A DNA stretch of 46,613 nt from a virus. Shown in pieces: positions 1-46,613 of the stretch (its first letter is position 1; each line of letters opens with the position of its first letter). A model generated the notes under the pieces. The model did not search any database, was not told the DNA's origin, and saw only the letters and a list, made by a program, of their open reading frames with translations. A program made the position numbers and the translations under genes. Where the stretch lies: positions 1 to 46,613 of IMG/VR virus record IMGVR_UViG_3300017605_001520; one strand, given 5' to 3'.

Positions 1-141
1 GCAGTTGTGGCAGTCGATCGCTCCGCCGTTCGCCCAGAACCCGAAGCCGCCGCCGTGGTAGCCGCTGACGTGCCAGAACGTGCCCGTCTGCCCGCTCCAC
101 AGCACGCACGAGCCGCCCGAGTACATCGCCGTGTTCTCGAC
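1..141. repeat. Direct repeat, left copy (overlap of a circular genome)
   Basis: These 141 bases are identical to 46473-46613. Joining the copies gives a 46,472-bp circle and restores an unbroken reading frame through the tailspike gene. A length of exactly 141 matches a common largest k-mer of metagenome assemblers, so this is most likely an assembly overlap and not a physical terminal repeat. It does not show whether the virion DNA is circularly permuted or has fixed ends. Confidence 0.97.
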
Positions 142-561
142 GACGCCGAAGCCGCCCGAAATGATGTTGAACTGATCGAGCGCCACCAGGATGCAGCGCT
201 TGATCGTGCCGACCTGGCCGTCGATGGTCTGCTGCCCGGTGGCGGTCGCTTCGATGTAGAGCCCGGTGATCGTCCACGCTTCAGAGTTCGTGACCGCGGG
301 CCCGGCTCCGACCACGATCCGCGCCTTCGACTCGCCGTTGGCGCGCGAGAAGCCGGTCACCTTGACGTCGGCCGCGGCGCGTATCAGGAGGTCGACGGCG
401 TTCGCGTTGCTGATGGCGAGGTCGAGCGTCGTCGCCTGGACGTTCGTCGCAGTGATGATCTCGATGACCTGGTCTTCCGTCGGATCGTCGCCGATGTCGT
501 CCTTCGCGTCCTGGATGGACGGGAAGTCCGCGCCGACGTTGCCGACCGTACGGATCGCCAC
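1..561 (-). CDS. Tailspike, N-terminal part (continues at 46472 across the junction)
   Basis: This is the start of a 1073-residue protein whose remainder is at 43812-46472. The GTG at 559-561 follows the stop of the upstream gene (TGA at 565-567) by three bases, and a weak GGGA sequence lies before it, so translation is probably coupled. The first residues read V-A-I-R-T-V-G-N-V-G-A-D-F-P-S-I-Q-D-A. A stretch rich in short beta strands follows (for example VDLLIRAA, ARIVVGAG, WTITGLYIEA), the pattern of a parallel beta-helix spike or lyase domain. No stop codon occurs from 561 to base 1, and the frame matches the copy at the right end. Product identity rests on the complete protein; see the right-hand entry for its domains. 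Confidence 0.85.
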   Translation of the reverse strand, partial: MAIRTVGNVGADFPSIQDAKDDIGDDPTEDQVIEIITATNVQATTLDLAISNANAVDLLIRAAADVKVTGFSRANGESKARIVVGAGPAVTNSEAWTITGLYIEATATGQQTIDGQVGTIKRCILVALDQFNIISGGFGVVENTAMYSGGSCVLWSGQTGTFWHVSGYHGGGFGFWANGGAIDCHNC

Positions 562-16613: not shown

Positions 16614-16937
16614 CTACAGCTTGATGAGCAGCGCTTCGACGATCTTCAGGCCCGTGCCGAAGCCGGCAACGAGCGCCTCGAAGACCTTGCGCTCCTCGGC
16701 GTAGCCCGCGTTGACGAGAGCGCTGCGCGACGCGAGCGTGATGTTCTTCGCGGCCTCCTCCGCCTGCGCCGGCGTGAGGACGCCGGCGGCCAGGTCGCCC
16801 GCCACCTGGCGCAGGTTCGACGAGAACTCGAGGAGCTTGTCGCGCGCCTCGCCCTCGACCTCGTTCGCGAGTCCGACGACGGCGCGCTGCAGGCCGTCGA
16901 AGGCGTCGCGCACCTGGTCCTTCGTCTTGCCGCTCAT
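16614..16937 (-). CDS. Small helical protein, last late gene
   Basis: 107 residues from ATG 16935-16937, overlapping the lipoprotein gene stop (ATGA). It begins MSGKTKDQVRDAFDGLQRAV and is mainly amphipathic helix. The C-terminal end VFEALVAGFGTGLKIVEALL is hydrophobic but moderately polar and could be membrane-associated. It lies with a lipoprotein and a membrane coiled-coil protein in a lysis-like cassette. A holin or lysis regulator is possible; no homology was recognised. Confidence 0.68.
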   Translation of the reverse strand: MSGKTKDQVRDAFDGLQRAVVGLANEVEGEARDKLLEFSSNLRQVAGDLAAGVLTPAQAEEAAKNITLASRSALVNAGYAEERKVFEALVAGFGTGLKIVEALLIKL

Positions 16938-17194
16938 CGCTGCGGACCGGCGAGGTTCTTCGCCAACTCGAGCGCCTCGGCGTTGCGGCGCATGCGAGTC
17001 TCCTTGAGCGACGCGGGCAGCGTCGTGTCCGCGTGCGTGTAGGCCGCGTTTTCGGCGACGAGGGCCTCGAGGTTGTCGAGGTTCGCCGCGGCGCCCTCCT
17101 TGTCGAGCGCGGCGTGCGTCGCCGTGCAGCCGCCGACCAGGCCGCCCAGGACGAACACCGCGCCGACGACGGCAGAGAGCAACAGGGACTTCAT
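16934..17194 (-). CDS. Lipoprotein, outer-membrane spanin candidate
   Basis: 86 residues from ATG 17192-17194, with AGGAGGTGA at ideal spacing. The N-terminus MKSLLLSAVVGAVFVLGGLV is a signal sequence ending in VGGC, with the lipid-modified cysteine at residue 23. The mature 64 residues are hydrophilic and helical. Small phage lipoproteins next to a membrane-anchored coiled-coil protein are typical o-spanins, which fuse inner and outer membranes at lysis in Gram-negative hosts. It lacks the proline-rich stretch common in o-spanins, so the assignment is tentative. Confidence 0.68.
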   Translation of the reverse strand: MKSLLLSAVVGAVFVLGGLVGGCTATHAALDKEGAAANLDNLEALVAENAAYTHADTTLPASLKETRMRRNAEALELAKNLAGPQR

Positions 17195-17216: not shown

Positions 17217-17606
17217 TTACCGGCGGCGCACGAGCACGTCGATGCCAGTCTCGGCGCGGCCCAGGCGGGCGTCCATGCCCGCGAGCTTGTCGCGCAGCGC
17301 GTCGTTCATCTGCTCGCCGCGCGCGAGCGTCACGCGGATTTCAGAGAACGCCAGGCGCAGCTCGTTCACCGTCTGGACGGCGTCGGTCGCCTTGTCGGCC
17401 GCCGCCTCCGCCTTCTTCGCCGCCTCGGCGGCGACGGCCGTCACGTTGACGACGGCGGCGCGGTTCGAGTCCATCCGGTCCCACATGAAGCCGAGCGCCG
17501 CGAGGATCGTCGCCGACGCGCCGGCGGTGAGCCCCGTGTTGCTCTTGATCGCACGGTAGACCTGCTTCCTCGTCGTCTCGGGCTTGCCGTCTGCGGGTTC
17601 GGTCAT
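17217..17606 (-). CDS. Membrane coiled-coil protein, i-spanin or holin candidate
   Basis: 129 residues from ATG 17604-17606, overlapping the stop of the giant gene (ATGA). Residues 1-23 are polar and basic. Residues about 24-43 (GLTAGASATILAALGFMWDR) form a single moderately hydrophobic segment. Residues 65-125 form a coiled coil (ELRLAFSEIRVTLARGEQM, DKLAGMDARLGRAETGIDVL). An N-in anchor with a long periplasmic coil is the layout of i-spanins, and the next gene encodes a lipoprotein. A holin with a coiled tail is the alternative. Confidence 0.68.
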   Translation of the reverse strand: MTEPADGKPETTRKQVYRAIKSNTGLTAGASATILAALGFMWDRMDSNRAAVVNVTAVAAEAAKKAEAAADKATDAVQTVNELRLAFSEIRVTLARGEQMNDALRDKLAGMDARLGRAETGIDVLVRRR

Positions 17607-20600
17607 CGCGCTGCGCCTCCCTTGGATGTCGCCAGGATACGCTCGACCAGCTCGCGCGCCTCGCGCGCCTGCTCGAGGAACTGTTCGCCGAGCCGGTCCT
17701 TCTCCTCGCCGCTCGAGCGGAAGTACTGGCGCCGCGTCGACTGCATGGCGCGCGCGATCTCGGACACGGCCTCGCTCGCCTCGGAAGGGACGTGCGGCAC
17801 GCCGCCGGCGCGCGCGCGTTCGGGGGCGCGGCGCACGAGCTGCTCCTCCGCCTTCATCTTGTCGAGCTCGCTGCGGAGCTGCCAGAAGCGGTCGTAGTCC
17901 TTGCTCTCGATGCCGCTCACCGTGAAGCGCGACACGATCGGCACGCGCCCGCTCGCCTCGCGCGGCCGCACTCCGACCGCGGCCTCGCCCGTGTCGACCA
18001 CCTCGCGGTACGCGCCGCCCGTGTAGTAGTTGAAGAGGTAATCGAACGCGAGCGGCGAGAGCCCGAGCTTCGGCGCCACTTCGCGCGCGAGCCGGCTCGT
18101 GCCCTCTCCGTACTGCTGCTCGAGCGGCGCCTCCTCGAGGGACGGCGGAACGACGGGGCGGCCGCTGAACGACTGCTTGTTGCGGAAGACGTCGATCGCT
18201 CCCTGCGCGGCCGTCGGGACGAGCGGCGGCACCGTCGTCTGATACATCTGCGTGCCCCACTCGCTGAAAGCCTGCGGGTTCTTGCCGTTCATGTAGTCCA
18301 GCACCGCGAGCGGCAGGCCGGCGTAGATCGAACCGACGGCGTGCGGCATGGGGATGCGGATCATGTCGTTGGGGCCGCTGCCGAAGGGGACGAGCCAGTA
18401 GCCGTAGCGCATGTAGCCCGGGCGGCCGTACACGCGCTCGTCGTCCTTCGTGCTCGCCCACAAGGCGACCGTCGGCGCGGTGATGTAGACGACGCCGCGC
18501 GCGTGCGTCCGCGGGTTGCCCATCGCGCGCGCGACCTTGTCGATCGCCTGGATGGACGGGTTGAAGAACGCCGTCGCGACGTTCATCTTGGCGCCGAACT
18601 CGCCCATGCGCTTGAAGTCGACGGTGACGTTCTCGGCCGCGAGCGCGGCCTTGCGGATCAGCGCCTCGGACGCGGGCCCCTTCTTCGGCGTCCACCCCTC
18701 GTTCTCGAGGACGGTGAGGAACTCGGCCATGCGCGTGCCGCCCTCGACGCGCGACGCGAACTCGCGGATGCCGTGGCCCCAGTTGGTCGGGTCGATGACG
18801 CGCGCGGCCTTCTCCGCGGCGGTGAGCGGCGTCTTCTTCGACATCTGCTTCACGACGTCGGCGGTGAAGTCGCGGTCGTAGCCCCAGTAGCCGCCCGACT
18901 CCGCGCCGCTCGCCTTATACATGCGCGACTCGACCGACGACGGCATCGCGAGCGAGTGCGCGAACCCGCGGACGAGGTTCTTCGCCGCGGTGTAGACGGG
19001 CACCTTCCGGCGCACGCCGGTGAGCAGGTACATCGGGATGTCGCGGATCGGGTTCGCGACCTGGAAGCCGACGCTGTAGACGACGGCGCCGAGCCGCTGC
19101 GCCTTGCTGAAGAGTCCGAGGGTCCGGAGCACCGCGCCCGTCTCGCGCGAGTCCAGGCGCGACAGCGCCTCGCGCATCTCCGGGCTGACCTGGTACCACT
19201 TCCGCTTGCCGTTCTTCCAGAGCGTGACGATGTTGTCGTTGCCCTTGGGCTGCGGACGGTTGACGAACACGGTGAGGGCCTCGGAGCGTTCGGCCTTCGT
19301 GAGCTTGCCGCCCTTCAGCCCCTCGAGGAAGTCGCGGATCTGCCACGCCTGGAACGTCGCGCGCATCTTCTCCTTCGGCACTTCCTCAATCCACTTGCCG
19401 AGTCCCTGCGCGGAGTCGCCGGCGCGGGCGATCGCGTTACTGAGCTGCAGCCGGTCGCCGAGCGAAATCAGCCGCCCGACGTCGGCGACGTCGGCCTCGA
19501 GCACGTCACGGATCTCGCGCGTGCTGCCGGTTCGCCGGCGAACGGGCTCCGGCGTGCCCTCGATCGCCGAGCCCTTGCGGCCGCCCTCCTCGACGAGCGC
19601 GCGGATGTCGCCCTTCACCTCGGGGAACATGCGCATGAAGTGCGCGTAGTTCTCGTTGTGGAAGTCCTCGCGCAGCCGCTCGTACACGCGCCGCGAGACG
19701 CCGCCGCGGCGCACCATCGTGTCGTACATGAGTCGCTCGCGCCACTCGACACGCTTCGTCGCCGCGTCGGCCACGACGCCGTTGTCGAAGTTCCGCAGCA
19801 CGTACTCGACGTCTTCCTTGCGCAGGCCCGGGTCGAGTCCCGACTTGAAGTAGTCGAGAGCGCGGCGAGCGACGACGACGGCGCGGAACTCGCGCATCTT
19901 CCCGGCGTCGACCACGGGCCGAACGATCTCGCGCAGTCCGGGCCCGCCGCCCATGTCCGTTGCGAGGTCGCCCTTGTCGAGGAACTCCTTGGCCCTCGAG
20001 GACGCGGAGCGCGTGTACTGGCGCGCCATCTCGATGATCTCGGGATGACCGGATGCCTCGGCGAAGCGCTTGAGCGTGTCGAGGTCGTCGAGCCACCAGC
20101 GGTTCAGCTTCGCGAGCTGGTCGCCGGGATTGCGCCGCCACTCGCTGACGGCCGCGGCGATGCGCGAGACGAGCGACGGCTTGCCGGTGTGCTGGAACGC
20201 CTCGAAGCGGCCCTCGGGCCCCTGGTCCTCGTAGCGCTGCGCCATCTCGGCCGCGCGCTCGATGCCCTTCTTCACCTCGGGCGCCTGGTCGAGCACCGTC
20301 TCGAGCCACGCGCGCGTCGCCGGCAGCGCGTTCTTCGTCGCGCCCTTGTGCTCGACGCGCTCGCGCAAGAGCTCCGCGAACCCCTCGGCCTCGTAACTCG
20401 TCGCCGGACGCCGGCGGCCGTACAGCAGCTTGCCGAGGCGGTAGAGGTCCTTCAGCACGGGCTTGGGGACGTTCGCATTCTTCACGTCGCCGCCGAGGAG
20501 CTGCGCCTCGAGCGCGTGGCCGGCCTCGTGCGCCGAGGTCGACGTGTCGTTCGCGTGCTTGAGCCGGACCACTTCCTCGCGCAGCCGGTAGAAGCCGAGG

Positions 20601-23600
20601 ACGCTGCGCGTCTTCGCGCCCAGGCGGCCGACGCGGATCGGGCGGTCGATCGTGTCCTCGAGCTTCTGCACGATCTCGCTCTCGCGCACGATCTCGCCCG
20701 GCGTGCCGGGCTTCACCTGGCGACGACCTGGTGACGGCGCAGCGGGCGGCGCCGCGGCCTCCTCCTCGGCGAAGAGACTCGCGGGGCGTCCGGCGGCCGT
20801 CGCGGGGCCTTCGCCGGCGGCCTCGGTCTTCTTTATGTCGTACGCGATGCGGGCCTGGTCGCGCAGGTAGTCACGCTGCACGTCGATGCCCTGCTTCTCC
20901 ATTTCGAGCATCTTCTCGTTCGCGACGTCGAACTCGACCGGGCGCCACTTCCCCTCGTCGAGCACGAGCGCATCGTACGTGCGCGGGCCCGTCGGCTTCA
21001 TGTCGACGCCGGTCGCGCGGCGGTACTTCGACGCCGACACCTCCACCTCGAGGGGATGCTCCGCGTCGGTGAAGCGCGGCGACACGCCGCCCTTCTTCGA
21101 GTACTTCCGCACCATCTTGTTGAACTCGTCGACGCCGACGCGCTCGATGTTCTTCTTCGCCATCTCCCACGCGGCCGCGGCGGTCTTGCCGTGGCCGACG
21201 CCGGCGCCGCTGCGCGCCTCGCTGACGGTCCAGCCGTCCGACTCCTTCGTGATGAACAGGTTGTGCTCGCGCGCCCACTTCTGCGGACCGGGCGGCGCCT
21301 TGCCGGGCACCTCGCGGAACTTGCCCTCGTTCGTCGCGACGAAGTAGCGGTCGGGCTTCGTCGGCTCGGTCGGCAGCTCCTTCTTCGGCTTGGGCGGCTT
21401 CTCACCCTTCGGCTTCGGCGGCTTCGTCGCCTTGCGTTCGACGTCGCGAACGTGCGCCTCGATCGCCTGCGCGGCGAGCTCCTGGATCGTGCGCTTCGTG
21501 TCGTACGACGACGGCCTGCTGCCGCTCTTGCGGATCTCGGCGGCGACGTCCTCGACACGCTCGCCGGCGGCGACGCGCCGGAGTCCCTGCGCGACGAGCC
21601 CGTGCTCCAGCGCAAGGTTCTCGTGACGCTCGCGCAGGTCCGGCTCTTTCTCGGCCTGGCGCTTCATGCGCTCCAGTTCCTCGAACGCCTGCTTGGCGCG
21701 CCTCTCTAGCCGCTTCGCCTGCGGGTGCGGCTCGCGCTCGCCGGCGACCGGCTCACGTTTCGGCGGTTCCGTCTCACGAACGGGCGGCTTCGGCTCAGGA
21801 GCGGGCGGTTTCGTCCCGCGGACCGGCGGCGAGGCTTTGCGCGGCTTCTTCGCTCCGCCGAAGTCTGCGTCGGCGGCTGACTTCACGGCGTCGATGCCGC
21901 GCAGTTTCATCGCCTGCTGCGCGTCGGTCTTGTGCTTGAAGTCGGCGAACGTGCCGTCCTCGAGATACACGCGCCAACCGAGACGACCCTCCGCACCGTG
22001 GAAGTCCGAAAGCGTGCGCTTGCCTGGTTCGGAGTCCTCGGGCTTGACTTCCTTCGGCATCGGTCCGACAGCCTTCGCGTGGCGCGCGATCGCCACCTTC
22101 ATCGCGTGGTCGAAGTAGATCGGCGCCTGCTCGCCGGCGCGCCACGTGACCTTGCCGTCGCTCGCGCGCGTGTGCGTGTCGGGGAGCTTCTCGAGGTCCG
22201 CACGCACGGCGGCAGGGTCCTCGCCGGCGGCGACGCGGCGCATCGCGTTCGCGAGCTCCGTCTTGAAGCGGCTGTCGATCGTCTCCTCGCCCTTCGCGTC
22301 CGAACGCGCCTCGATCGCCTGCGTGTCGAACGCGGCCGCGCGCTTGAGGAGCTCCTGCGCGGCGGGGTGCTGCTCGACGGACGGCTCCTCGGCCGGCGGC
22401 TCCTCCGGCGGCGGCGCCGCGCGCTCCTCGAGCGTCTTGCGCAGCGTCTCGTCGGTGGCGGGCTTGCGCTCGACCTTCAGCCCTTCCGGCTGCGCCGCCT
22501 CTGCGGCCGCAGCTTCCTCGGGCGTTCGCGCGAGGACTGTGCGGACTTCGCGGCCGCTGCTATCACGCACCTGTACCACTTCGCGCGCTGCACCTTCGGG
22601 CGGCTTTTCGTCCGTTCCATTGATGAGCCTCCACGGCGTGCGCCCCTTCTTGGGGCGGTCCAGGTACGACAGGAACCCGCGCTTGACCTGCGCGTTGTCG
22701 AAGAGGAACTCGGCGCCGTCGCTCGCCTTGTACGGCCGGATATCGCGGCCCGTCTCGGCCGAGGCCCTCTGCGCCAGGCTCTCGATCGTGAAGTCGGCGA
22801 GCTGCTGCTCGCCGGCGGTCGGAACGGTGCCCTCGGACGGCGCGGGGCGGCCCCACGCCTTGCCCATCTTGAGCACCTCCTCGGGGAGCTGCGCCTCCGC
22901 CTCGATCGGCCGACGGACCGGGGCGGCCTCCGGCGCTGCCGTACGCGTCGGCGGCGCCGCGGGCGCGGCCGAGGGCTCCACCTGGATCGGCGGCTCCTTG
23001 AACTCGACCCTGGGCCCTCCTGGTGCGCCTGTCTCGACGTTGACCGACGGGGCCACGTCTCGCGGCTTGGGCGGCTGGATGACCCTCGCAGGCGCCTCCA
23101 CGGGCGCCGGGGCGGGGATCCTCGTCGGGAGCGGCGCCACCTCGGCCGCGGGGATCGGGGCGGGAGCCTCTGCAAGTGGGACCATCGCGGCCCGCGGCCG
23201 CGCGGCCAGGCTCTCGACCAGGCGCGCGCTCCTGCCCTGCAGGTTCGCAGCGCCGCGCTCGAGCGGACCGAACGCGACCATCGGCAGGATGCCCTGCCCG
23301 AAGCCCGCTCCGGAGCGTCCTGCGCGCGCGATCTCGTCTTCACTGCCGCCGGCGGCGATCGACGCCAGCTCGCCGGCGCCGCGGCCGATGTCGCCGGACC
23401 ACTCAATCGGCTTGTCGATGACGGCGTTGCTGAAGTCGGCGACCGGCGTCGAAGCGTCCATGCCCTCGCGCGCGGCCTCCTCCTTCGCCTGCGCGAGAGA
23501 TGCGCGGCTCGCCGTCAGCCCGGCCATGAGCGGATGGAAGCCGATGAGCGCGCCGACGCCGCCCACGAACCGCTCGCCGGCGGTGTCGCCGTGCACGAAC

Positions 23601-24196
23601 TGACTCGCGCCGTGCTCGATCGCCTCGAGGGGCGACTCGACCAGGCGGTGCGCGACGCGAAGGCCGGGCCCCTGCGCCTCCCACCGCTGCGCCGCCTCGT
23701 TCGCCTTCCTCGCCGCTTCGGCCTCCACGTAGCGGCGTCCGTACTCCTCGCGCGTCGGCCGCGGCGGCGGCATCTCGCGCGGCACCTGGCGCGGGCCGAC
23801 GAAGTTCGGCGGGTACTGCGGCGGCGTCTCCATGTACTGCCGCCCCGCGTTGCGTTCGCCCCACGCGTTGAGGTCCGCCATGTGCATCGCGTTGAGGTCC
23901 TCTTCCGTGGCGATCGCCGCGGCCCTCTCCGGCGTGAGCTCCGTGACGTACGGCGCATCGGAGGACGGGCCGAAACCCATGCCGACCGTGCCCGCGCGCG
24001 CAGCCGCGGCTGCGGGGTTCGATAGCGTGCGAAGTCCGTCGTCGGACAGGCGCGTGACGTCGCCGGCGGAAAGCGCCGTCAGGTCCGCGTCGGACAGAGC
24101 GCGCAGCGCGTCGGACGTGTCCGCGCCGGGGACGTAGAGCATCTCCTTGCGCGCGTGCTTCTCGACATCGACGCCGGGGAAGAGGTCGTCGCTCAC
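17603..24196 (-). CDS. Giant polyvalent internal virion protein with HEAGH zincin and LPD38-like domain
   Basis: 2197 residues from GTG 24194-24196, overlapping the previous stop. It takes up 14% of the genome. Near the N-terminus there are short repeats (LSDADLTALSAGDVTRLSD). Residues about 330-480 and 770-850 are long proline-, alanine- and lysine-rich linkers. HEAGH at 1223-1227, followed about 40 residues later by an EGFAE segment, looks like a zinc metallopeptidase (zincin). The last 600 residues (for example FFNPSIQAIDKVARAM, GYWLVPFGSGPNDMIRIPMP) resemble the large polyvalent-protein domain LPD38. Such proteins are carried in virions and injected. Two other ejection-protein candidates are encoded just upstream. 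The domain names are recalled from family patterns and have not been searched. Confidence 0.85.
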   Translation of the reverse strand: MSDDLFPGVDVEKHARKEMLYVPGADTSDALRALSDADLTALSAGDVTRLSDDGLRTLSNPAAAAARAGTVGMGFGPSSDAPYVTELTPERAAAIATEEDLNAMHMADLNAWGERNAGRQYMETPPQYPPNFVGPRQVPREMPPPRPTREEYGRRYVEAEAARKANEAAQRWEAQGPGLRVAHRLVESPLEAIEHGASQFVHGDTAGERFVGGVGALIGFHPLMAGLTASRASLAQAKEEAAREGMDASTPVADFSNAVIDKPIEWSGDIGRGAGELASIAAGGSEDEIARAGRSGAGFGQGILPMVAFGPLERGAANLQGRSARLVESLAARPRAAMVPLAEAPAPIPAAEVAPLPTRIPAPAPVEAPARVIQPPKPRDVAPSVNVETGAPGGPRVEFKEPPIQVEPSAAPAAPPTRTAAPEAAPVRRPIEAEAQLPEEVLKMGKAWGRPAPSEGTVPTAGEQQLADFTIESLAQRASAETGRDIRPYKASDGAEFLFDNAQVKRGFLSYLDRPKKGRTPWRLINGTDEKPPEGAAREVVQVRDSSGREVRTVLARTPEEAAAAEAAQPEGLKVERKPATDETLRKTLEERAAPPPEEPPAEEPSVEQHPAAQELLKRAAAFDTQAIEARSDAKGEETIDSRFKTELANAMRRVAAGEDPAAVRADLEKLPDTHTRASDGKVTWRAGEQAPIYFDHAMKVAIARHAKAVGPMPKEVKPEDSEPGKRTLSDFHGAEGRLGWRVYLEDGTFADFKHKTDAQQAMKLRGIDAVKSAADADFGGAKKPRKASPPVRGTKPPAPEPKPPVRETEPPKREPVAGEREPHPQAKRLERRAKQAFEELERMKRQAEKEPDLRERHENLALEHGLVAQGLRRVAAGERVEDVAAEIRKSGSRPSSYDTKRTIQELAAQAIEAHVRDVERKATKPPKPKGEKPPKPKKELPTEPTKPDRYFVATNEGKFREVPGKAPPGPQKWAREHNLFITKESDGWTVSEARSGAGVGHGKTAAAAWEMAKKNIERVGVDEFNKMVRKYSKKGGVSPRFTDAEHPLEVEVSASKYRRATGVDMKPTGPRTYDALVLDEGKWRPVEFDVANEKMLEMEKQGIDVQRDYLRDQARIAYDIKKTEAAGEGPATAAGRPASLFAEEEAAAPPAAPSPGRRQVKPGTPGEIVRESEIVQKLEDTIDRPIRVGRLGAKTRSVLGFYRLREEVVRLKHANDTSTSAHEAGHALEAQLLGGDVKNANVPKPVLKDLYRLGKLLYGRRRPATSYEAEGFAELLRERVEHKGATKNALPATRAWLETVLDQAPEVKKGIERAAEMAQRYEDQGPEGRFEAFQHTGKPSLVSRIAAAVSEWRRNPGDQLAKLNRWWLDDLDTLKRFAEASGHPEIIEMARQYTRSASSRAKEFLDKGDLATDMGGGPGLREIVRPVVDAGKMREFRAVVVARRALDYFKSGLDPGLRKEDVEYVLRNFDNGVVADAATKRVEWRERLMYDTMVRRGGVSRRVYERLREDFHNENYAHFMRMFPEVKGDIRALVEEGGRKGSAIEGTPEPVRRRTGSTREIRDVLEADVADVGRLISLGDRLQLSNAIARAGDSAQGLGKWIEEVPKEKMRATFQAWQIRDFLEGLKGGKLTKAERSEALTVFVNRPQPKGNDNIVTLWKNGKRKWYQVSPEMREALSRLDSRETGAVLRTLGLFSKAQRLGAVVYSVGFQVANPIRDIPMYLLTGVRRKVPVYTAAKNLVRGFAHSLAMPSSVESRMYKASGAESGGYWGYDRDFTADVVKQMSKKTPLTAAEKAARVIDPTNWGHGIREFASRVEGGTRMAEFLTVLENEGWTPKKGPASEALIRKAALAAENVTVDFKRMGEFGAKMNVATAFFNPSIQAIDKVARAMGNPRTHARGVVYITAPTVALWASTKDDERVYGRPGYMRYGYWLVPFGSGPNDMIRIPMPHAVGSIYAGLPLAVLDYMNGKNPQAFSEWGTQMYQTTVPPLVPTAAQGAIDVFRNKQSFSGRPVVPPSLEEAPLEQQYGEGTSRLAREVAPKLGLSPLAFDYLFNYYTGGAYREVVDTGEAAVGVRPREASGRVPIVSRFTVSGIESKDYDRFWQLRSELDKMKAEEQLVRRAPERARAGGVPHVPSEASEAVSEIARAMQSTRRQYFRSSGEEKDRLGEQFLEQAREARELVERILATSKGGAAR

Positions 24197-25408: not shown

Positions 25409-27613
25409 CTAGATGAACGCCGCGAGAGCCGCGCCGGCGAGCTGGCCTCCGGCCTGGTACAGGCCCGCCTTGCGCTGCGCGTCGGCCAAGTCCTGCGCGT
25501 CCTCCTGCGCCTTCTTCGCCTCCTGCGCGCCGAAGAAGCCGGTCGAGAAGTCGCCGAGTCCCTGATACGCGTTCTGCCCGAGCGGGCCCTGGTTCATGAG
25601 GATGCGCTCGAGGTCGCTGCGCTGCCCGATCTCGGCGCCCAAGTACTTCGAGCCGCCGGTCAGCGCATTCAGCGCGTCCTGCTCGCCGACGCGCTTGCGC
25701 AGTGCGGCCTCCACTTCCTGATCCGCCAGGTCGTTGCGCAGGCCGCGCCTGTTCTCGAGTCCGCCCGCGTACGACGTGCCCGCGAACGTCATCGGGTCCA
25801 GGCCGCGCGACGCCGCGAGCCGCGAGAGTCCCTGGTCGCCCTCGAGGAGCGCCGCGTCGGCCTTCTCGATCGTGTGGCCGCGCATGACCGCGTTGCCTTC
25901 AGCACCGAGCGGGTCGGGGTTCTCGGCGATGCCCTTCGCGATCCGTTCGTACTCCGCGCGCATGGGGTCGTTGACCAGCTCGTCGAGCGAAATCTTGCCG
26001 AGGTCGAACGCCTGCGAGCGGTCCTTCAAGTACTGCTCGAGTTCGTTCTTGCGCTGCTGGATCTCGAGGGCCGGACCGAACGCTTCCTTTGGGACGCCGG
26101 CGGAGTTGAGGTCCTTGAACGACTGCACAATGCCCTTGTCGAGCACGAGGCCGCTGTCCATGTTCGTGTCGGGCGGCGCGTACGGGTCCGCCGGCGGCTG
26201 TCCCGGCGTCTGCGGGAGCGGCTCCGCCGAGAAGGGCCGGTAGTAGATGCCGTAGCGCTCGAGCATCGCGCTGTGCTTCTGCAGCTCCGCCGCGTTCTTC
26301 GAGATGATGCCCGCGCGGCGGTCGGCGTCCGGCTCCTTGTCGGCTTCGGCGAGCAGCGCCGCCGCGTTCTGCGCCGCGTTCATCGCGCGCATGACGGCGT
26401 CGTAGCCCTTCTTCGTCGACGGGATCTTCAGGATGGTGTCCGCGGGGATCGCGGCGGTGTTGATGATGAGCGGCTTGCCGTCGTTCGTGAAGGCGCCCGT
26501 GCCCTTCTCGGCGTCGAACTCGAACGGCGGGAAGTCGGGCGCGTTCTTCGCGTCCTTGCCCCAGTAATCGCTCGCCTTCGGCGGGTTCGCGGCGTGCTGA
26601 TAGTCGTAGACGGCTCCCTGCGCGATGGAGTCTTCAGTCTGCCCCGGCGTGGGCCCGGCGCCCTCGGGTCCCGGCGCCGCCGGCGTCGGCGTGACGCTGT
26701 GGTTCTCGAGGTACTGCTTCTGCTGCGCGGGCGTCCCGGCGCGGAACTTGTCCATGTCGGGCAGCTTGTCGAGCGTGTAGTCCTTGCCGTTCCACCGGAA
26801 CGACTGGCTCGTCTGCAGCTCCTTCGTCGTGGCGTCCGCCACCTTCATGCTCTTGGTCGTCGCCGGCGGCGGCGCGGCCGCCGACGTCGTGGTCTTCGTC
26901 GTCGGCGCGGCCGCAGGCGGCTCGAACTTCCCCGTCTGCTGGTTCCACACGTAGCCCGGCGCACTGACGCCGCCCTGCACCGTCATGCCGCCGGTCGGCG
27001 GCGCAGCCGCGGGCGGCGCAGCGGGCGCAGGCGGCGCAGTGGGTGCGGGCACCGTGGTGCGCGGCGGCTGCGGAGGCATCACCGCCGGCGTCGCGGGCTG
27101 CTCGAGGTACGGCTTGGGAGCGGACACGGGCGCAGGAGCGGGCGCAGGCGGCGCACCCGGCACGCCCGGCCTGCGCATCGGCGGCCGCGCAGGGCCGCGC
27201 GGCGGCGCGCCGCGCGGCGGCGCAGGCATCGGCGCGGGCGCGGGGAGCTGCGCACTCAGTCCGTCGGCGGGCACCTTCTCGCTCGAGTTGTCGGTCTTGA
27301 AGTAGCCGTCGCTGCGCGCGTCGATCGCCGCGGAGTACTTCGGGTCCGCGGACGGACGCGCCTCGTTCGATCCGGGCGCGCCCGCGCCCGGGTACGCGTC
27401 TCCGCGGCCAGGCCCGGCGTCCGGCAGCATCCCCTGCAGGTAGCCCGCGGGATCGTTGCCGCGGAACGCGACGCCGGCGAGAGGGCCGAGCGCCGCGCCA
27501 GGCGGACCGAACGACGAGCGCGCGATACCCGCGCCAGGAACGGGCCGACTGTCGACTCCGACCGCGCCCATCGGCTGCACGTCGGGGTTCTGGACGCGCG
27601 GAGTCCACGGCAT
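25409..27613 (-). CDS. Proline-rich internal virion protein candidate
   Basis: 734 residues from ATG 27611-27613. The frame has an earlier GTG at 27620-27622, but AGGAGGTG lies eight bases before the ATG and overlaps the GTG, so the ATG is the start. Residues about 110-240 are extremely rich in proline and alanine and must be disordered. Residues about 250-640 are helical. The end, GLYQAGGQLAGAALAAFI, is a hydrophobic helix that could insert into a membrane. This suits an ejection protein that lines or docks a channel. No catalytic motif was seen. Confidence 0.74.
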   Translation of the reverse strand: MPWTPRVQNPDVQPMGAVGVDSRPVPGAGIARSSFGPPGAALGPLAGVAFRGNDPAGYLQGMLPDAGPGRGDAYPGAGAPGSNEARPSADPKYSAAIDARSDGYFKTDNSSEKVPADGLSAQLPAPAPMPAPPRGAPPRGPARPPMRRPGVPGAPPAPAPAPVSAPKPYLEQPATPAVMPPQPPRTTVPAPTAPPAPAAPPAAAPPTGGMTVQGGVSAPGYVWNQQTGKFEPPAAAPTTKTTTSAAAPPPATTKSMKVADATTKELQTSQSFRWNGKDYTLDKLPDMDKFRAGTPAQQKQYLENHSVTPTPAAPGPEGAGPTPGQTEDSIAQGAVYDYQHAANPPKASDYWGKDAKNAPDFPPFEFDAEKGTGAFTNDGKPLIINTAAIPADTILKIPSTKKGYDAVMRAMNAAQNAAALLAEADKEPDADRRAGIISKNAAELQKHSAMLERYGIYYRPFSAEPLPQTPGQPPADPYAPPDTNMDSGLVLDKGIVQSFKDLNSAGVPKEAFGPALEIQQRKNELEQYLKDRSQAFDLGKISLDELVNDPMRAEYERIAKGIAENPDPLGAEGNAVMRGHTIEKADAALLEGDQGLSRLAASRGLDPMTFAGTSYAGGLENRRGLRNDLADQEVEAALRKRVGEQDALNALTGGSKYLGAEIGQRSDLERILMNQGPLGQNAYQGLGDFSTGFFGAQEAKKAQEDAQDLADAQRKAGLYQAGGQLAGAALAAFI

Positions 27614-27657: not shown

Positions 27658-28827
27658 CTAGTTCACCACGGGGTTTAGCAGGACAAAGTTCGTCCCGTCG
27701 TACACGATCAAGCAGAGCATGCTCGCGAGGATGTCCCCGGTCGCCGGCGTGGTGTTGACTCGCTTGACGATCGTCTTCGCCCCGAGGCCATTCACGTTGA
27801 TTGTGCACCCGGTCGTGTTCTGCGTATTCGCCTTGAAGATGATGAGCTGCCCAGTCTCGTAGGACGTGATCGCCGGCGAGAGCGTGATGACGTAGCTGTC
27901 GTTGGCCTGCGAGTCCACGGCGTAGTTCCACATCCCGAACGTCTTGCCGGTGATCTTCTCCGCCCCCGCGAGCGTGGAGAGCGTCCCAGTCGTCGGCAGC
28001 GTGACGTTCGTCGAGCCGGTAGTCGTCAGCGTGAGCGCGTTCGCGCCGGATGTCGTGAGAGCTGCAGCGGTGGTCAAGTTGCCGGCGAGGTTGACCGTCC
28101 GGTCGGCATCGTTCGTGACGACGTTGAGAGTGCGGCCCGCGGTGAGCGTCTCGTTCGGCTTGATCGTCAGCGCGTTGGAGCTGCCGCCCTTCACCACCAG
28201 GCCGGTCTGATTGAGCAGCACCGAAGTGATGTCCGTGTTCGCGCCGCTCGCGGCCGCCGAGAGAGTCGCCCGCTGCGCGGTCGCGTCCGCGTCGTCCACG
28301 AGCGCGCGTCCAGCCGTCGTAAACGTCGCAGTCGTCGCGGTGCCGCTGCCGGTGAAGTACGGGACCTTGTCGGCCGCCGACGTCGTCGAGGCGAGCGCAG
28401 AGAGCTCCGCGTCGAATGCCTGCACGTTTGTCCCGATCGCGAGGCCGAGGTTCGTCCTCGCTCCCGAGTCCGTCGTCGCGTTCGTCCCGCCGTTGGCGAT
28501 CGCCACCGGGTTCGCCCACGTGACGGCCAGCGTGCCGGAGGTCGTGACCGGCGAGCCGGCGACCGAGAACTCGGACGGCACGGTCAGCGCGACGCTCGTC
28601 ACTGTGCCGCTGCCGGAGCCGCCCGCCTGGTAGGTCGGCAGGTTCCCGGCGCCGTTGCTCGTGAGGACGTGCCCCGCGGTCCCCGGCACGAGCTGCCCCT
28701 GCGCGACGTCGGACGTCGCGTAGAAGATCGCGCCCTTCGTGTACGGGCCCGCGGCCATGAGCGACGACGTGACGAGGAATGCGAGCAGCACGGCGCAACC
28801 GACGGCAAGGAAACGAGTCGAGTTCAC
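27658..28827 (-). CDS. Tail fibre protein with N-terminal signal peptide
   Basis: 389 residues from GTG 28825-28827 (GGAGGGAG upstream), overlapping the previous stop. Residues about 65-135 show typical fibre repeats: SGTVTSVALTVPSEFSVAGS, ANGGTNATTDSGARTNLGL and NVQAFDAELSALAST. The C-terminus (QLIIFKANTQNTTGCTINV, GDILASMLCLIVYDGTNFVL) is a common fibre tip. Unusually, the protein begins MNSTRFLAVGCAVLLAFLVT followed by SSLMAAG, a classical Sec signal with a cleavage site. Virion fibres do not normally carry one. It may be displayed by the infected cell, or the hydrophobic end may anchor the fibre to the tail. Confidence 0.85.
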   Translation of the reverse strand: MNSTRFLAVGCAVLLAFLVTSSLMAAGPYTKGAIFYATSDVAQGQLVPGTAGHVLTSNGAGNLPTYQAGGSGSGTVTSVALTVPSEFSVAGSPVTTSGTLAVTWANPVAIANGGTNATTDSGARTNLGLAIGTNVQAFDAELSALASTTSAADKVPYFTGSGTATTATFTTAGRALVDDADATAQRATLSAAASGANTDITSVLLNQTGLVVKGGSSNALTIKPNETLTAGRTLNVVTNDADRTVNLAGNLTTAAALTTSGANALTLTTTGSTNVTLPTTGTLSTLAGAEKITGKTFGMWNYAVDSQANDSYVITLSPAITSYETGQLIIFKANTQNTTGCTINVNGLGAKTIVKRVNTTPATGDILASMLCLIVYDGTNFVLLNPVVN

Positions 28828-29519
28828 AGCTCCCTCCTCTTGATCGTGACGACGGGCCGCACCAGCGCGGGCCCGGACAGAGTCTCCTCGAGGAACAGGC
28901 GCAGCATGTCGCCGGCGAGCGCGTCGACCGTGTCGCCGCGGCCGAGCGCGGCGAAGAAGTCGTAGCGGCTGCCCGCTGCGAGCGCCGTCTCGGACGTGTC
29001 GATCGCTCCGAGCAGCTCCACCTCGCCGGTGCGACGGACGAGCTGCGCTCGGATGATCCAGCTAGCGGTCGCTGGGTCGACGTCGGCGCCCACCTCGAGC
29101 GACACACCGCTGATACGCCAGGAGCGCGGCACCTCGAGAAGCGGCACGACGTCGCCGCGGCTCCCCTGCACGATGACCTGCGTCGTGCCGAGGTACGCGA
29201 GGTCGGTCGTGTCCGCCACCTCGCCGCCGCCGCCGTAGTACGCGAGGACGAGGTTCGGCTCCGCGAACTCGAACGTGTAGCCGCCTCTCGGCGCGATGAG
29301 CACGGCCGCCCTGTTCGGGACGACGGGCAGCGCCGGCGAGACGGGCACGCCGCCGGCGACGTACGGGACCGCGAACGTGTGCGTCGATGCGGCGAAGACC
29401 GGCGTGCCGCCCGTGATGTCGGGCAGCTCGAGGACGACGCGATCGCTGCGGTGGATGAACCGCTTGCGGTCCTGCGCTACGAGACGCGGATCGTGGCCGA
29501 ACGGCTGGTCCTGGCTCAC
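28824..29519 (-). CDS. Tail protein of unknown fold (beta-rich)
   Basis: 231 residues from GTG 29517-29519, overlapping the nozzle gene stop (GTGA). It contains many beta-strand segments (VPNRAAVLIAPRGGYTFEFA, VIVQGSRGDVVPLLEV, SWIIRAQLVRRTGEVELLGA) and a helical end (ALAGDMLRLFLEETLSGPAL). Its place between nozzle and fibre genes suggests a fibre adaptor or minor tail protein. No family was recognised. Confidence 0.72.
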   Translation of the reverse strand: MSQDQPFGHDPRLVAQDRKRFIHRSDRVVLELPDITGGTPVFAASTHTFAVPYVAGGVPVSPALPVVPNRAAVLIAPRGGYTFEFAEPNLVLAYYGGGGEVADTTDLAYLGTTQVIVQGSRGDVVPLLEVPRSWRISGVSLEVGADVDPATASWIIRAQLVRRTGEVELLGAIDTSETALAAGSRYDFFAALGRGDTVDALAGDMLRLFLEETLSGPALVRPVVTIKRREL

Positions 29520-31309: not shown

Positions 31310-32361
31310 TTCTTCACCTTGAGCGGCTGCACGTACACGCGGCCGCCGACGATGATGAGCAGCTCGCGCGAGCCGTCTGTCTTGTCGTACTGCCCGACGT
31401 GCTGGCCCATGAAGCACGGGTTCGTGAGCTGCACCTGGTACGCGGGATTGCCGACGACCGTCGCGTGGTTCGCGCTGTACGAGTCGTCGTTACCGTCGCC
31501 GTTGAAATCGTAGTGGAAGGCCGCCTCGAGCGGGTTCGGCCAGGACTGGCGCGCGTAGCGCCTGCAGGTGTCGATGAGCGACCGCCCGTTGTCGCGCAGC
31601 TCCGCTGGATCGACGCCGGGCCACGGCACCGCAGTGATGGCGTCGATGACGCCGCCGGCGAACGCCGTGTCCGCCTCGAGGTCCGCCGGGATCGCACCGT
31701 CGGAGGTCTGTCCGAAGGTGAGTCGCGCGTCCTCGCTGCGCAGCACGACGGCGTCATCGCCGATGCCGTCGACCGTGTCCTCGAGGTCGTCGTTCACGTA
31801 CAGGTAGAGACTCCCGCCGTCGTCGGAGTACGGGTTGAAGAAGAGGAAGCCGCGGATGGTCGAGTTGGCGACCGTCGCCGCCTCGCACGTGAACTTCTGC
31901 GCGTCGCTGTCGCGCGAGAAGTGCGCAAGGAACGTCCCGTCGGCCTTCAGCTCGAGGCCGTAGCTCGAGCGGTGCGTCCCGTCGGCCACCTCGCGCATGA
32001 AGATGGCGACGCCGTCGTGGTCCGCCGGGTTGCCCGCAGGGCGCACTGCCTTGAAGTGGAAGAAGATCGACCACGGGCCCGCGGGGAACTCCTGCGCCGC
32101 GTGCCACGGCGCGTGCGCGTAGTCCCCGCCGTTCGCGATGACGACGGCGCCGGCGGTGTCGTGCGGGTTGTCGAGCCGCTGCACGACCTGCAGGCCGCCG
32201 CGGCGGCGGATGTCGCGCTTGTCCGTGCGCACGCCGCTCGCGGCGATCGTCGAGCCGCGGTTCACCATGCCGGGCTCGCTCCAGAGGTCGAGCCCCTTCG
32301 CGCCGATCGGCGAGATGCGCGGCTTGTCCCCCGGCCGGTCGCGCTTCCTCTCGGGAGGCAT
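31306..32361 (-). CDS. Concanavalin/LamG-like structural protein
   Basis: 351 residues from ATG 32359-32361, overlapping the adaptor stop by one base. The first 50 residues are basic. Residues about 95-260 resemble a LamG or concanavalin-like jelly roll: GPWSIFFHFKAVRP, DGVAIFMREV, SSYGLELKADGTFLAHFS, SLYLYVNDDL. The C-terminal part has a YDFNGDGNDDSYSAN sequence with a calcium-binding look and ends in a beta strand. This is probably a virion protein that binds glycans or decorates the tail. Function is inferred from fold-like patterns only. Confidence 0.72.
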   Translation of the reverse strand: MPPERKRDRPGDKPRISPIGAKGLDLWSEPGMVNRGSTIAASGVRTDKRDIRRRGGLQVVQRLDNPHDTAGAVVIANGGDYAHAPWHAAQEFPAGPWSIFFHFKAVRPAGNPADHDGVAIFMREVADGTHRSSYGLELKADGTFLAHFSRDSDAQKFTCEAATVANSTIRGFLFFNPYSDDGGSLYLYVNDDLEDTVDGIGDDAVVLRSEDARLTFGQTSDGAIPADLEADTAFAGGVIDAITAVPWPGVDPAELRDNGRSLIDTCRRYARQSWPNPLEAAFHYDFNGDGNDDSYSANHATVVGNPAYQVQLTNPCFMGQHVGQYDKTDGSRELLIIVGGRVYVQPLKVKK

Positions 32362-43811: not shown

Positions 43812-46613
43812 CTAGCGGACTCGCGGCTTCCTGTACCGGCCGGGGATGCCGGTGCCCTGGTGGAAGCGGCCGCGGCCCTTGCCGGGCATCGTCGTCCTGC
43901 CGCCCTCGCCGGGAGTGACGGGGATCGGGAGCTCGTTCACGCCGGCGTGCGCGCCGATCGCGGTCGTCGATCGCCGGCGCCGGTCGTCGACCGCGTAGGG
44001 ACACCGCGCGGTGCGCGGCACGGCGTTCTCAGTCGGGCCGCCGACCTTCGGGCGCCAGTCGTCCGTGGCCGTGTCCACGGCGATGTCGGCGGGCACCAGG
44101 TCGCCCACGCCGTGCGCGTCGTCCTGGTCGACCGCGTCGCTGATCGTGCCGACGCCGTCGATGACGACATGGTCGATCGGGTCGCGCAGCTCACCCGGCG
44201 CGGTGCTCCAGTTGAGCGTGATGTAGGACGTGTCCTTCAGGAGCGAGTTGATGATCTCGGCGTGCGTCACGATCTGCTTCCTGTCGAGGAAGTCGCCGGC
44301 GCCAGTCTCGAACCTCGTCACGTTCCCGACCGGCGCGGAGCAGTGGTAGAAGCCGATGCCCATGCACGCGCGGAGCACGCTGATGAAGAGGCCGTTCGCG
44401 CCGAGCGGCAGCCCGATGATGTCGAGGAAGTAGTAGCCCGTCGCCGGGATGAACTCGGCCTCTGCTCCGTTGCGCATCTGGAACCACGTCGCCTGGCAGT
44501 TGAAGAACTCGCCGTAGGCGTTCACCAGGTTGCGGTGCCCCTGCTCCGCGAAGGACTGGAACATGTCCGAGTGCAGCGGGTTGCCGGCCGCTGGCGGTGG
44601 GCCCGAGCCGTCGTCGGTGCCGTCCGCGTAGATGTCCTGGCCGCGCGCGCCGAGGCCGGAGCACATGGGCGAGCCGAACGCCTGCGCAATACGGCGCTGA
44701 ATGAGGTTGCAGTACGTCGTGAGCGTGTAGAGGCCGTCCGCGCTGTCCTCACAGACGACGTAGTTGTCGCGCTCGTTCGGCCAGCGGTTCCCGTCGACGT
44801 CGGCGTCCGCCTCGAGGCCGCTGCTCTTTTCGCACGCGCGCCCGAACACGTACACGCCGCCGGTCCACGTCGCCGGCGTCACGAACGTGTGCCGCAGCGT
44901 CTTCGGCTCGTTGCCCGGCTCCTGCGCGGTCCGGCCGAAGCCGGTCAGCCGCGTGTTGCCGCCGAGGACGATCATCGGCGTCTGCGCGTTGTTCGCGTTG
45001 AGCGTGATGCGGTAGACCCACACGTCGTAGAGCTCGAGCTTCAGCCCCGGGCTGTACGCGCCGCCCGACGTGACGAACTTCACGTCGGTGGGGAGCAGGC
45101 CGTCCTGCGGCTTGATCGTGAAGATGCCCTCGTCGAAGTCGCAGAAGCCGTGCGGCCCGATGAAGTCGTACTCGCCGGCGGCGCCGAGCGCGACGCCCAG
45201 GCCCGCGTCGCCGTTGTCCGCCTGGCACTGATCCATGCAGCCGCCGGGAGTCGCCTTCGGCTGCGCGAGCGTCCCCGGGTCTAGGTCGTCGCCGAGCGGA
45301 TCGAAGTAGTACGTGCGCGCCGCGCGGATCGCGCCGCCCGGATCGGGCACGACGAACACCTCGCCGAGGTCCGTCGAGTTGCCCACGTTGCTGTACGCGA
45401 TCGCGTGCACGGAGACTGGGACGCCGGCGTCCCAGTCGTTCGGATCGAAGGGCACGTTGTAGTCCGGGTGCCCGTGGTACGCGTTCGGCGTCATGCTGGT
45501 GACGGCGATCGGCGCGCCGCCGCCGATCTCGAACTCGACGCGGTTCACGCCGCGCACCATCGCCGCGAGCACTCCGAGCTGCGTCGGCGCTTCGATTCCG
45601 CCGTACCGGCGGAAGTTGTAGATGGCCGCGGGGTAGAGCTTCTGCGCGCGGAACTTCGTCGCCCACAGACTGAAGCCCGAGTCGTTCAGCGCCTTCACGA
45701 CGATGTCGTACGTGCCCTCGGCCAGCGTCTCGCCGTCCACGACCAGGCGCCCAAACTCGTTGATCGTGAGTCCGGCCGGCGTGTCGCTCGTGACGTCGAA
45801 GGTCCACTCGGCGACGGCGCCGCCCTGGTTCTGGATCTGGAAGAGGTCGGCGCAGTTGGGGCCGACCTGCACCTGCATGCGGCCGCGGTTCGCGGCGATG
45901 ACCGGGACCTGGACGACCACCTCGATGTCGATAGGGCCCGTGTCCGATCCGGCGGCGTTCGTCGCCCTGCCGACGCACGCGTAGCTGCCGATCGAGGAGC
46001 CGTCCGTCGGCAGCGTGCCGGTGAGCTTCCCCGTCGCGGGGTTCATCGCGACGCCGGGCGGCGGGTCGTCGCCCAGGTCCGTGTCGAACTCCCAGTCGGT
46101 CGACGCGCCGCCGGCGTTGTCCGCGTCCTCGTCGAGGGTGTCGCCCTCCTGGAACGTGAACGGCGAGCCGGGCCAACTCGGATCGGGCGGACTGTCGGAC
46201 GCGGGCTCGTCGGCGCCGCACTCCGGCGTTGCGTCGCGAGGGTCGCCCTCGATGTCCGTCGCGAGGTCGACGTCGAAGCCCGTGGGATCCTCGGTGCTCG
46301 GGAAGGTGCCGGACGGCTCCGTCGTCGCCAGGTCGAACGTCCCCGCCACGACGCTGACGAAGTGCGCCGCGGCGTTCTGATAGTTCGTCGTGCCCGGGGC
46401 CGTCGCATCGCTCGAGACGTTGTTGTCGCCGCCGGCGCCGGCGAAGTCGCCGAAGCCGCCGCCCGCCATGTCGCAGTTGTGGCAGTCGATCGCTCCGCCG
46501 TTCGCCCAGAACCCGAAGCCGCCGCCGTGGTAGCCGCTGACGTGCCAGAACGTGCCCGTCTGCCCGCTCCACAGCACGCACGAGCCGCCCGAGTACATCG
46601 CCGTGTTCTCGAC
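43812..46613 (-). CDS. Tailspike, C-terminal part: beta-helix, Ig-like domains, second beta-helix
   Basis: This is the rest of the 1073-residue protein that starts at 561. In complete numbering, the first parallel beta-helix covers about 1-280 and ends with EGDPR (262-266) and GADE (273-276), the usual end signature of such helices. Three beta-sandwich units follow: Ig-like at about 282-375 and 376-465, and another at 468-563. YYFDPLGDDLDPGTLAQPKA (near 575) opens the second helix, with HSDMFQSF at 821-828. The tail after about 1015 is basic and flexible (GRGRFHQGTGIPGRYRKP). Most likely it is a receptor-binding spike or capsule depolymerase. No catalytic residue could be assigned. Confidence 0.87.
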   Translation of the reverse strand, partial: VENTAMYSGGSCVLWSGQTGTFWHVSGYHGGGFGFWANGGAIDCHNCDMAGGGFGDFAGAGGDNNVSSDATAPGTTNYQNAAAHFVSVVAGTFDLATTEPSGTFPSTEDPTGFDVDLATDIEGDPRDATPECGADEPASDSPPDPSWPGSPFTFQEGDTLDEDADNAGGASTDWEFDTDLGDDPPPGVAMNPATGKLTGTLPTDGSSIGSYACVGRATNAAGSDTGPIDIEVVVQVPVIAANRGRMQVQVGPNCADLFQIQNQGGAVAEWTFDVTSDTPAGLTINEFGRLVVDGETLAEGTYDIVVKALNDSGFSLWATKFRAQKLYPAAIYNFRRYGGIEAPTQLGVLAAMVRGVNRVEFEIGGGAPIAVTSMTPNAYHGHPDYNVPFDPNDWDAGVPVSVHAIAYSNVGNSTDLGEVFVVPDPGGAIRAARTYYFDPLGDDLDPGTLAQPKATPGGCMDQCQADNGDAGLGVALGAAGEYDFIGPHGFCDFDEGIFTIKPQDGLLPTDVKFVTSGGAYSPGLKLELYDVWVYRITLNANNAQTPMIVLGGNTRLTGFGRTAQEPGNEPKTLRHTFVTPATWTGGVYVFGRACEKSSGLEADADVDGNRWPNERDNYVVCEDSADGLYTLTTYCNLIQRRIAQAFGSPMCSGLGARGQDIYADGTDDGSGPPPAAGNPLHSDMFQSFAEQGHRNLVNAYGEFFNCQATWFQMRNGAEAEFIPATGYYFLDIIGLPLGANGLFISVLRACMGIGFYHCSAPVGNVTRFETGAGDFLDRKQIVTHAEIINSLLKDTSYITLNWSTAPGELRDPIDHVVIDGVGTISDAVDQDDAHGVGDLVPADIAVDTATDDWRPKVGGPTENAVPRTARCPYAVDDRRRRSTTAIGAHAGVNELPIPVTPGEGGRTTMPGKGRGRFHQGTGIPGRYRKPRVR
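46473..46613. repeat. Direct repeat, right copy
   Basis: Identical to bases 1-141. Removing one copy closes the genome and joins the two parts of the tailspike gene in frame (codon 124-126 corresponds to 46596-46598). Confidence 0.97.

Follow-up and report, generated by a model that had tools for sequence, protein, structure and literature searches.

A tail-fibre-like phage protein with a Sec-type N-terminal signal, and the recurrence of such signals on fibres sharing its C-terminal domain

The fibre gene and the genome around it

The window analysed here is the whole of the IMG/VR virus record IMGVR_UViG_3300017605_001520, 46,613 nt long with a GC content of 70%. An exact direct repeat of 141 nt is present at the record ends (1-141 and 46473-46613); we take it as the overlap of a circular sequence, so that the genome is probably complete at about 46,472 bp (about 46.47 kb). 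The late genes on the minus strand are arranged in the order terminase, portal, capsid, adaptor, nozzle-like gene, 231-aa gene, fibre and three large genes (Table 1), which places the fibre gene in the tail module, between the nozzle-like gene and the large late genes. Judging from its size and position, the product of the 2197-aa gene, the last of the three, may be an internal virion protein. Relatives of the capsid protein in named phages were found in 13 records, all below 60% identity and mostly from Arthrobacter and Microbacterium phages, and the nozzle-like protein had no relatives in viral contigs or phages. The Ig-domain protein, about 1073 aa long by arithmetic (187 + 933 - 47 repeated codons), is a candidate second spike or fibre of this genome; its gene runs across the record ends, and with the Ig domain in its larger part the window fibre is not the sole spike or fibre candidate. 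The 86-aa lipoprotein gene adjoins a TM gene (17217-17606), with which it might form a spanin pair, and a lipoprotein with a weak spanin match hints, and no more, at a diderm host. Moreover, five 20-nt copies of CGTCCCACCGGCGGGACGGT in a palindromic layout lie at 7048-7199 and may be iterons or regulator sites. The tRNA-Arg called by ARAGORN at 31912-31996 (minus strand) lies within an ORF and was set aside as probably false.

Table 1. Features of the fibre locus and of the surrounding genome (positions in the window)
Feature	Position	Strand	Remarks
Fibre ORF, 389 aa	28827-27658	-	GTG start at 28827, stop codon 27660-27658
Predicted signal peptide, codons 1-25	28753..28827	-	n-region MNSTR, core FLAVGCAVLLAFLV, c-region TSSLMA
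Shine-Dalgarno AGGAGG	28833..28838	-	5 nt before the fibre GTG; within the 3' end of the 231-aa gene
In-frame ATG (M24)	28756..28758	-	would give a signal-less form; no Shine-Dalgarno; just past the hydrophobic stretch
Fibre-shaft modules, residues 26-293	27949..28752	-	phrog_24210 and Rhizobium phage matches
C-terminal beta domain, residues 294-389	27661..27948	-	bead like those in the Pa193 tail fibre
231-aa gene, upstream of fibre	28824..29519	-	translationally coupled; no family match
Nozzle-like protein, 597 aa	29516..31309	-	called by position; the longer ORF matches phrog_511 (internal virion protein), E 5.9e-6
734-aa late gene, downstream of fibre	25409..27613	-	no family match
2197-aa late gene	17603..24196	-	phrog_9854 E 3.4e-47, function unknown
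Terminase	39761-41662	-	phrog_2
Portal		-	phrog_156
Capsid		-	phrog_14242
Adaptor		-	SU10_adaptor
Ig-domain protein, main piece	43812..46613	-	He_PIG E 2.9e-5; no signal; continues in 1-561
Ig-domain protein, N-terminal piece	1..561	-	across record ends
86-aa lipoprotein	16934..17194	-	GGC lipobox; besides the fibre, the one signal-positive ORF; weakly matches an Rz-like spanin family (phrog_5151, E 0.0068)

The coordinates, strand and reading of the fibre ORF given in a preliminary description of this DNA were found to be exact. The GTG at 28827 is the earliest start codon of the fibre frame and has the strongest Shine-Dalgarno sequence in it, whereas neither the in-frame GTG at 28791 nor the ATG at 28758 has a Shine-Dalgarno match by our own rule; a wrong start codon was therefore rejected as an explanation of the signal-like N-terminus. 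The start of the fibre gene overlaps the stop of the preceding 231-aa gene by 4 nt.

N-terminal signal and fibre modules

The fibre N-terminus reads MNSTR-FLAVGCAVLLAFLV-TSSLMA/AGPY and contains one positive charge, a hydrophobic core of 14 residues (mean Kyte-Doolittle 2.92) and a small-residue site that is best placed after A25 (L at -3, A at -1), where cleavage is predicted; the alternative site after A26 has M at -3. The n-, h- and c-regions and the small-residue site of a signal peptidase I substrate are all present, and the uncleaved N-terminal tryptic peptide is predicted to be FLAVGCAVLLAFLVTSSLMAAGPYTK. Signals were called with a rule of our own, calibrated on 118 E. coli K-12 genes from three annotated regions, the annotated genes having been sorted by us into exported, inner-membrane and cytosolic lists. 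By this rule 25 of the 27 exported proteins were positive (19/21 non-lipoproteins and 6/6 lipoproteins), as were 6/26 inner-membrane and 1/65 cytosolic proteins. The fibre was positive with a score of 10.48, inside the range of the exported E. coli proteins; we rate it as moderate because it is exceeded by 17 of the 19 positive exported non-lipoproteins. Among 20,000 random N-termini of the window amino-acid composition, 207 were positive and 45 reached 10.48. Two of the 48 ORFs called in the window, the first and last of which are pieces of one gene, were positive, namely the fibre and the 86-aa lipoprotein. Together with the tail-fibre family matches given below, this upholds the earlier reading of a fibre-like protein with a Sec-type signal; the signal and its predicted cleavage site stand, whereas the length of 27 residues assigned to it was slightly too long.

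Downstream of the signal, residues 110-190 match the tail fiber family phrog_24210 (E 1.5e-10) and five further PHROGs match as well, among the tail-fibre families being phrog_4900 (E 8.2e-8), phrog_2097 and phrog_11303. Residues 101-179 match a Rhizobium phage tail fibre at the level of 71%, the middle part matches five named-phage records (Rhizobium phages and HMO-2011), and the matches to phrog_4900 and phrog_28171 lie in the C-terminal 96 residues. No Pfam family was detected in the whole protein at E <= 0.1, neither Pfam nor PHROG gave a match in residues 1-96, although many virion-attachment domains are undescribed, and no lysis family was found in the two scans. Antibody light-chain matches of the whole protein in a sequence search of solved structures (E >= 0.017) were taken as composition noise.

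The C-terminal domain matches 316 named-phage records, of which 297 belong to Pseudomonas phages. An AlphaFold (AF2) model of residues 294-389, built from 56 sequences, reached a pLDDT of 94.1, and its best PDB match in Foldseek was chain 2 of 9b45, the tail fibre of Pa193 (E 1.5e-5, TM 0.72), which was also the sole match at E <= 0.001. In PB1 the homologous domain occupies residues about 246-325 of a 964-aa tail protein, and residues 1-340 of the Pa193 fibre are described as a string of three beads attached to the baseplate (PMC11042391). Because of the fold match to Pa193 and the proximal position of the bead in PB1-like fibres, the modelled domain is best regarded as a generic fibre bead or shaft building block and not as a dedicated tip. 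The preliminary description had called both the fibre repeats and the tip unmistakable; the fibre assignment is borne out by the PHROG matches, and the tip is rejected.

Signals on related fibres

When viral contigs were searched with the C-terminal domain, 333 relatives could be confirmed and 79 loci were kept; reduction by likeness left 64, and 63 ORFs remained after one with an open 5' end had been dropped. A signal was present in 9 of these 63 dereplicated ORFs with a complete 5' end, and all nine were among the 28 closest (at least 48% identity), as compared to 0/35 below that level. When the domain lay at the extreme C-terminus, six ORFs out of seven carried a signal (L121, L122, L129, L134, L135 and L139, the exception being L123 with 72% identity), as compared to 3/56 when it lay elsewhere (Fisher p 8e-6). 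The background rate was 23/538 for the other genes of the same loci and 2/951 for genes in 80 capsid-relative loci, a comparison that favours the domain ORFs, for each of which several starts were tried as opposed to one per background gene. In a tree of 56 domains the window fibre falls into a clade with L121 and L122 (support 100/96), both of them signal-bearing and with locus GC contents of 42% and 38%, respectively. With tree labels set by hand and L208 and L140 excluded from the count, the signal needs 9 changes on this tree, of which at least five are forced by well-supported branches, and the signals are clustered (3 of 500 shuffles were as low). The signal is thus present in the nearest clade mates L121 and L122, absent in L123, and has been gained or lost at least five times. 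Correction for the tree left 3 independent pairs with a median p of 0.5 for C-terminal place versus signal, and a link between the two is not established once descent is allowed for.

The same domain is found in signal-bearing proteins of L207, L209 and L217, which lie on bacterial chromosomes as far as their neighbours can be read, and L206 and L212 look prophage-like by their neighbours; the neighbour identities given for L121-L149 and L206-L281 without a family search were read by eye from the N-termini. Also by eye, the signal-bearing fibre genes of L135, L139 and L149 appear directly after the capsid gene, as compared to the tail position of the window gene. On the basis of sequence, the comparison favours a genuine signal on the window fibre.

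Furthermore, signals were observed ahead of virion-attachment domains. In L128/L129 a 28-residue signal is followed at once by an attachment domain of the T7-gp17 type, which matches phrog_1640 (E 6.8e-30, the match beginning at profile position 10) and, below the family cut-off, PF03906 (E 5.7e-5). Searching with this domain minus the signal yielded six loci, two of which were the L128/L129 records themselves. L290 has a different signal before the attachment domain; in L291, L292 and L293 the protein begins with residue 2 of the domain, behind a good Shine-Dalgarno sequence and without a signal, and the canonical relative HTVC034P starts with the attachment domain, likewise without a signal. 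The signal-bearing gene of L128/L129 and L290 is located where a fibre is usually found, following a large late protein, and in the 42.8-kb L129 record it is the sole match to that N-terminus at E <= 10. In L149 the signal precedes Mtd_N (E 0.0021, below cut-off). These cases indicate that signals get added to genuine fibres, which may keep a virion role there, and for L128/L129 the retained attachment domain and the sole match in the record point to such a role. Two gene arrangements were seen beside these: in L291 (3998-6987) a 318-aa signal-less attachment protein overlaps the next gene, which codes for a 678-aa signal-bearing partner, and in L293 (5146-8357) five signal-bearing genes follow, (nearly) in a row, a signal-less T7-type fibre adaptor.

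Two properties of these signals bear on their function. The signals of L128 and L290 (28 codons) differ by 7 nonsynonymous and 7 synonymous changes, as compared to 10 and 44 in the next 122 codons, and the domain after the signal is 92% identical; the nonsynonymous changes in the signal and one inserted residue all lie within the hydrophobic part and mostly replace hydrophobic by hydrophobic residues. Such exchange is the usual mode of signal evolution. In Bacteroidetes, most signal peptidase I substrates begin with Gln after cleavage (PMC5837995). Q at +1 of an allowed site was present in all signal-positive genes of L121 (3/3), L149 (2/2), L027 (1/1) and the Prolixibacteraceae contig L207 (4/4), in part of those of L148 (2/3), L122 and L134 (2/4 each), L009 (1/2) and the prophage-like L206 (1/2), and in 0/19 of those of L128, L130, L135, L139, L290, L291 and L293; phages were classed as Bacteroidetes-like only once their signals had been seen, and host names exist only for L206 and L207. 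Since Q at +1 in several phages fits the Bacteroidetes rule, it counts for working signals there. In the window signal no allowed cleavage site is followed by Q. Additionally, an upstream in-frame start of a 1070-aa fibre-like ORF in L122 (2489-5701) adds a Q-rule signal, possibly making it a two-start fibre. It is speculation that this start and the M24 ATG of the window fibre could give exported and cytoplasmic forms from one gene.

Several further results count against an exported fibre. Searches for capsid relatives found 210 loci, of which 80 were kept; 48 of the 80 were examined, and none of the 48 showed a signal-bearing fibre downstream of its capsid gene. For the other 18 window proteins searched no match was obtained in the loci collected by that stage, the matches being those of capsid, portal and repetitive fibre modules. 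Among loci with window-like N-terminal modules, an N-terminal signal was present in 1/28 (L027). Three cultured Bacteroidetes phages (Croceibacter phage P2559Y, Flavobacterium phage 11b and Bacteroides phage B124-14) likewise yielded no signal-bearing fibre, their rule-positive ORFs not being fibres. The 1116-aa signal-bearing fibre of L121 had no match in cultured phages, and the fibres of L206, L128, L134 and L148 matched other phages over parts only, the context having been examined for two matches; a cultured phage with a signal-bearing fibre may exist. Signal-bearing tail fibres were not described among the literature matches listed, and one study reports that signal peptides are missing from DGR-target proteins of phages (PMC6199706).

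Proposed export of the fibre, rival readings and known systems

We consider it likely that the window fibre is exported. The suggestion in the preliminary description that the protein may be exported gains indirect support from the signals on domain-sharing fibres, the Q-rule cases and the bacterial-chromosome proteins; its premise that a virion fibre should not carry such a signal is too strong in general, as signal-bearing fibres are a minority but recur. With respect to function, our leading proposal, to which we give a little less than an even chance, is a Sec-exported fibre that is made late and acts outside the cytoplasm, masking receptors or debris. We propose that the type-I signal peptide (residues 1-25 or 26) would take the chain across the cytoplasmic membrane and that cleavage would leave a mature part consisting of tail-fibre shaft modules and then the bead-like beta domain. 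Being translated from the middle of the late operon and coupled to the preceding gene, the fibre would be made together with virion parts and, outside the cytoplasm, might bind host-envelope structures, mask receptors or debris late in infection and protect released progeny, much as T5 Llp or free pb5 does, except that here a fibre would be doing the blocking. Against this proposal stand the moderate signal score, the capsid-relative loci and cultured phages in which no signal-bearing fibre was seen, the signal-less L123, the loss of the C-terminal association on the tree, the single N-terminal signal among the 28 loci with window-like modules, the virion role to which L128/L129 point, and expression from the late operon, which misfits early superinfection exclusion.

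A less probable, though not negligible, alternative is that a true virion fibre passes through Sec: it would leave the cytoplasm ahead of lysis, stay in the periplasm or on the cell surface and attach to particles once the cell has opened. Signals before T7-gp17-type attachment domains in the usual fibre position (L128/L129 and L290), the single match to that N-terminus in the L129 record and the signal before Mtd_N in L149, below cut-off as it is, count for such a route, whereas the window protein has no recognised attachment domain and the genome encodes a signal-less second spike candidate. Moreover, we know of no tailed phage that completes its fibres outside the cytoplasm. It is unlikely that the protein is an exported adhesin altering the surface of infected or lysogenic cells, i.e., a moron in the tail module: the signal-bearing proteins with the same domain in Bacteroidota genomes (L207, L209 and L217) would fit this, as would Lom of lambda, a protein with a signal peptide whose gene lies between those of the tail tip and the tail fibre (PMC12309495), but the fibre gene is coupled into the late operon by its 4-nt overlap, and no integrase turned up among the genes to which a function was given. 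To the same low degree we would credit an accidental or silent signal on an ordinary, cytoplasm-assembled fibre, either because M24 is the effective start or because the protein folds before Sec can take it. The M24 form would begin with MAAGPYTKG, a plain fibre start, and in PB1-like phages the fibres that contain the domain belong to the virion; against this, M24 lacks a Shine-Dalgarno sequence as compared to the AGGAGG at the GTG, its use would open an unusual gap in a tightly packed operon, and signals recur on related domains. The tail anchor offered in the preliminary description, or more generally an uncleaved hydrophobic N-terminus anchored in membrane or tail, has only a slight chance: despite the single positive charge and the imperfect best cut site with L at -3, a 14-residue core is short for a membrane anchor, the cores of the window protein and of its homologues precede small-residue sites, several homologues have Q at +1, and in L128 and L290 the signal precedes a separate, intact T7-type attachment domain.

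The pairing of signal and fibre recurs in other uncultivated phages, which suggests, at the level of sequence, that infected cells may export the fibres of some phages and do not use them for particle building alone. From the repeated signal fusion onto fibres, the intact T7-type domains and the runs of neighbouring fibre-like genes (five in L293, three in L121) a bolder reading can be drawn, which we regard as a long shot: a class of tailed phages might send fibres or spikes through host Sec and show them at the surface before lysis; released virions would then pick them up outside the cytoplasm, one protein first masking receptors on the dying cell and later arming the particle. The general assumption is that the making and assembly of tail fibres take place in the cytoplasm. 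Should signal-bearing fibres be exported, adsorption proteins would gain a second life outside the cell, be it in masking, as decoys, in envelope cleaning or in late assembly, and annotation that makes all fibres parts of the virion would be in error for the signal-bearing ones. A Sec signal on a fibre is a simple sequence mark that can be counted across viromes and tested in cultured phage.

Compared to known systems, the closest likeness in structure is to the tail fibre of the Pbunaviruses Pa193 and PB1, which has the same C-terminal beta domain; there it forms one of the beads of a virion fibre, close to the baseplate (PMC11042391), whereas in the window protein it ends the chain and a signal starts it. 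T7 gp17-type fibres have an N-terminal attachment domain, which stands behind the signal in L128/L290 and was not detected in the window protein by Pfam or PHROG. Use of host Sec by phage proteins is established for secretory and SAR endolysins (PMC6116005), whereas the window protein has no lytic domain. Porphyromonas gingivalis phages (Nixviridae) carry genes of unknown function whose products have Q-rule Sec signals, in keeping with the signal peptidase of the host; in the available text of that report they are not described as fibres (PMC10367356), and the window signal differs in having no Q at +1. Lom of lambda is likewise a signal-bearing protein from the tail-fibre region (PMC12309495); however, it is an outer-membrane beta-barrel, whereas the window protein is a fibre, in which no Lom-like barrel was found by Pfam and of which the sole modelled fold (residues 294-389) is a fibre bead. 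With T5 Llp/pb5 and the Cor lipoproteins the likeness would lie in a phage-encoded, exported receptor blocker beside a receptor-binding gene: in T5 the genes for Llp and pb5 are neighbours, and infection is also blocked by pb5 itself when it is added (PMC9586334). In contrast to Llp, a small lipoprotein of the periplasm, the window protein is a 389-aa fibre without a usable lipobox, the only Cys of its signal (C11) lying inside the core.
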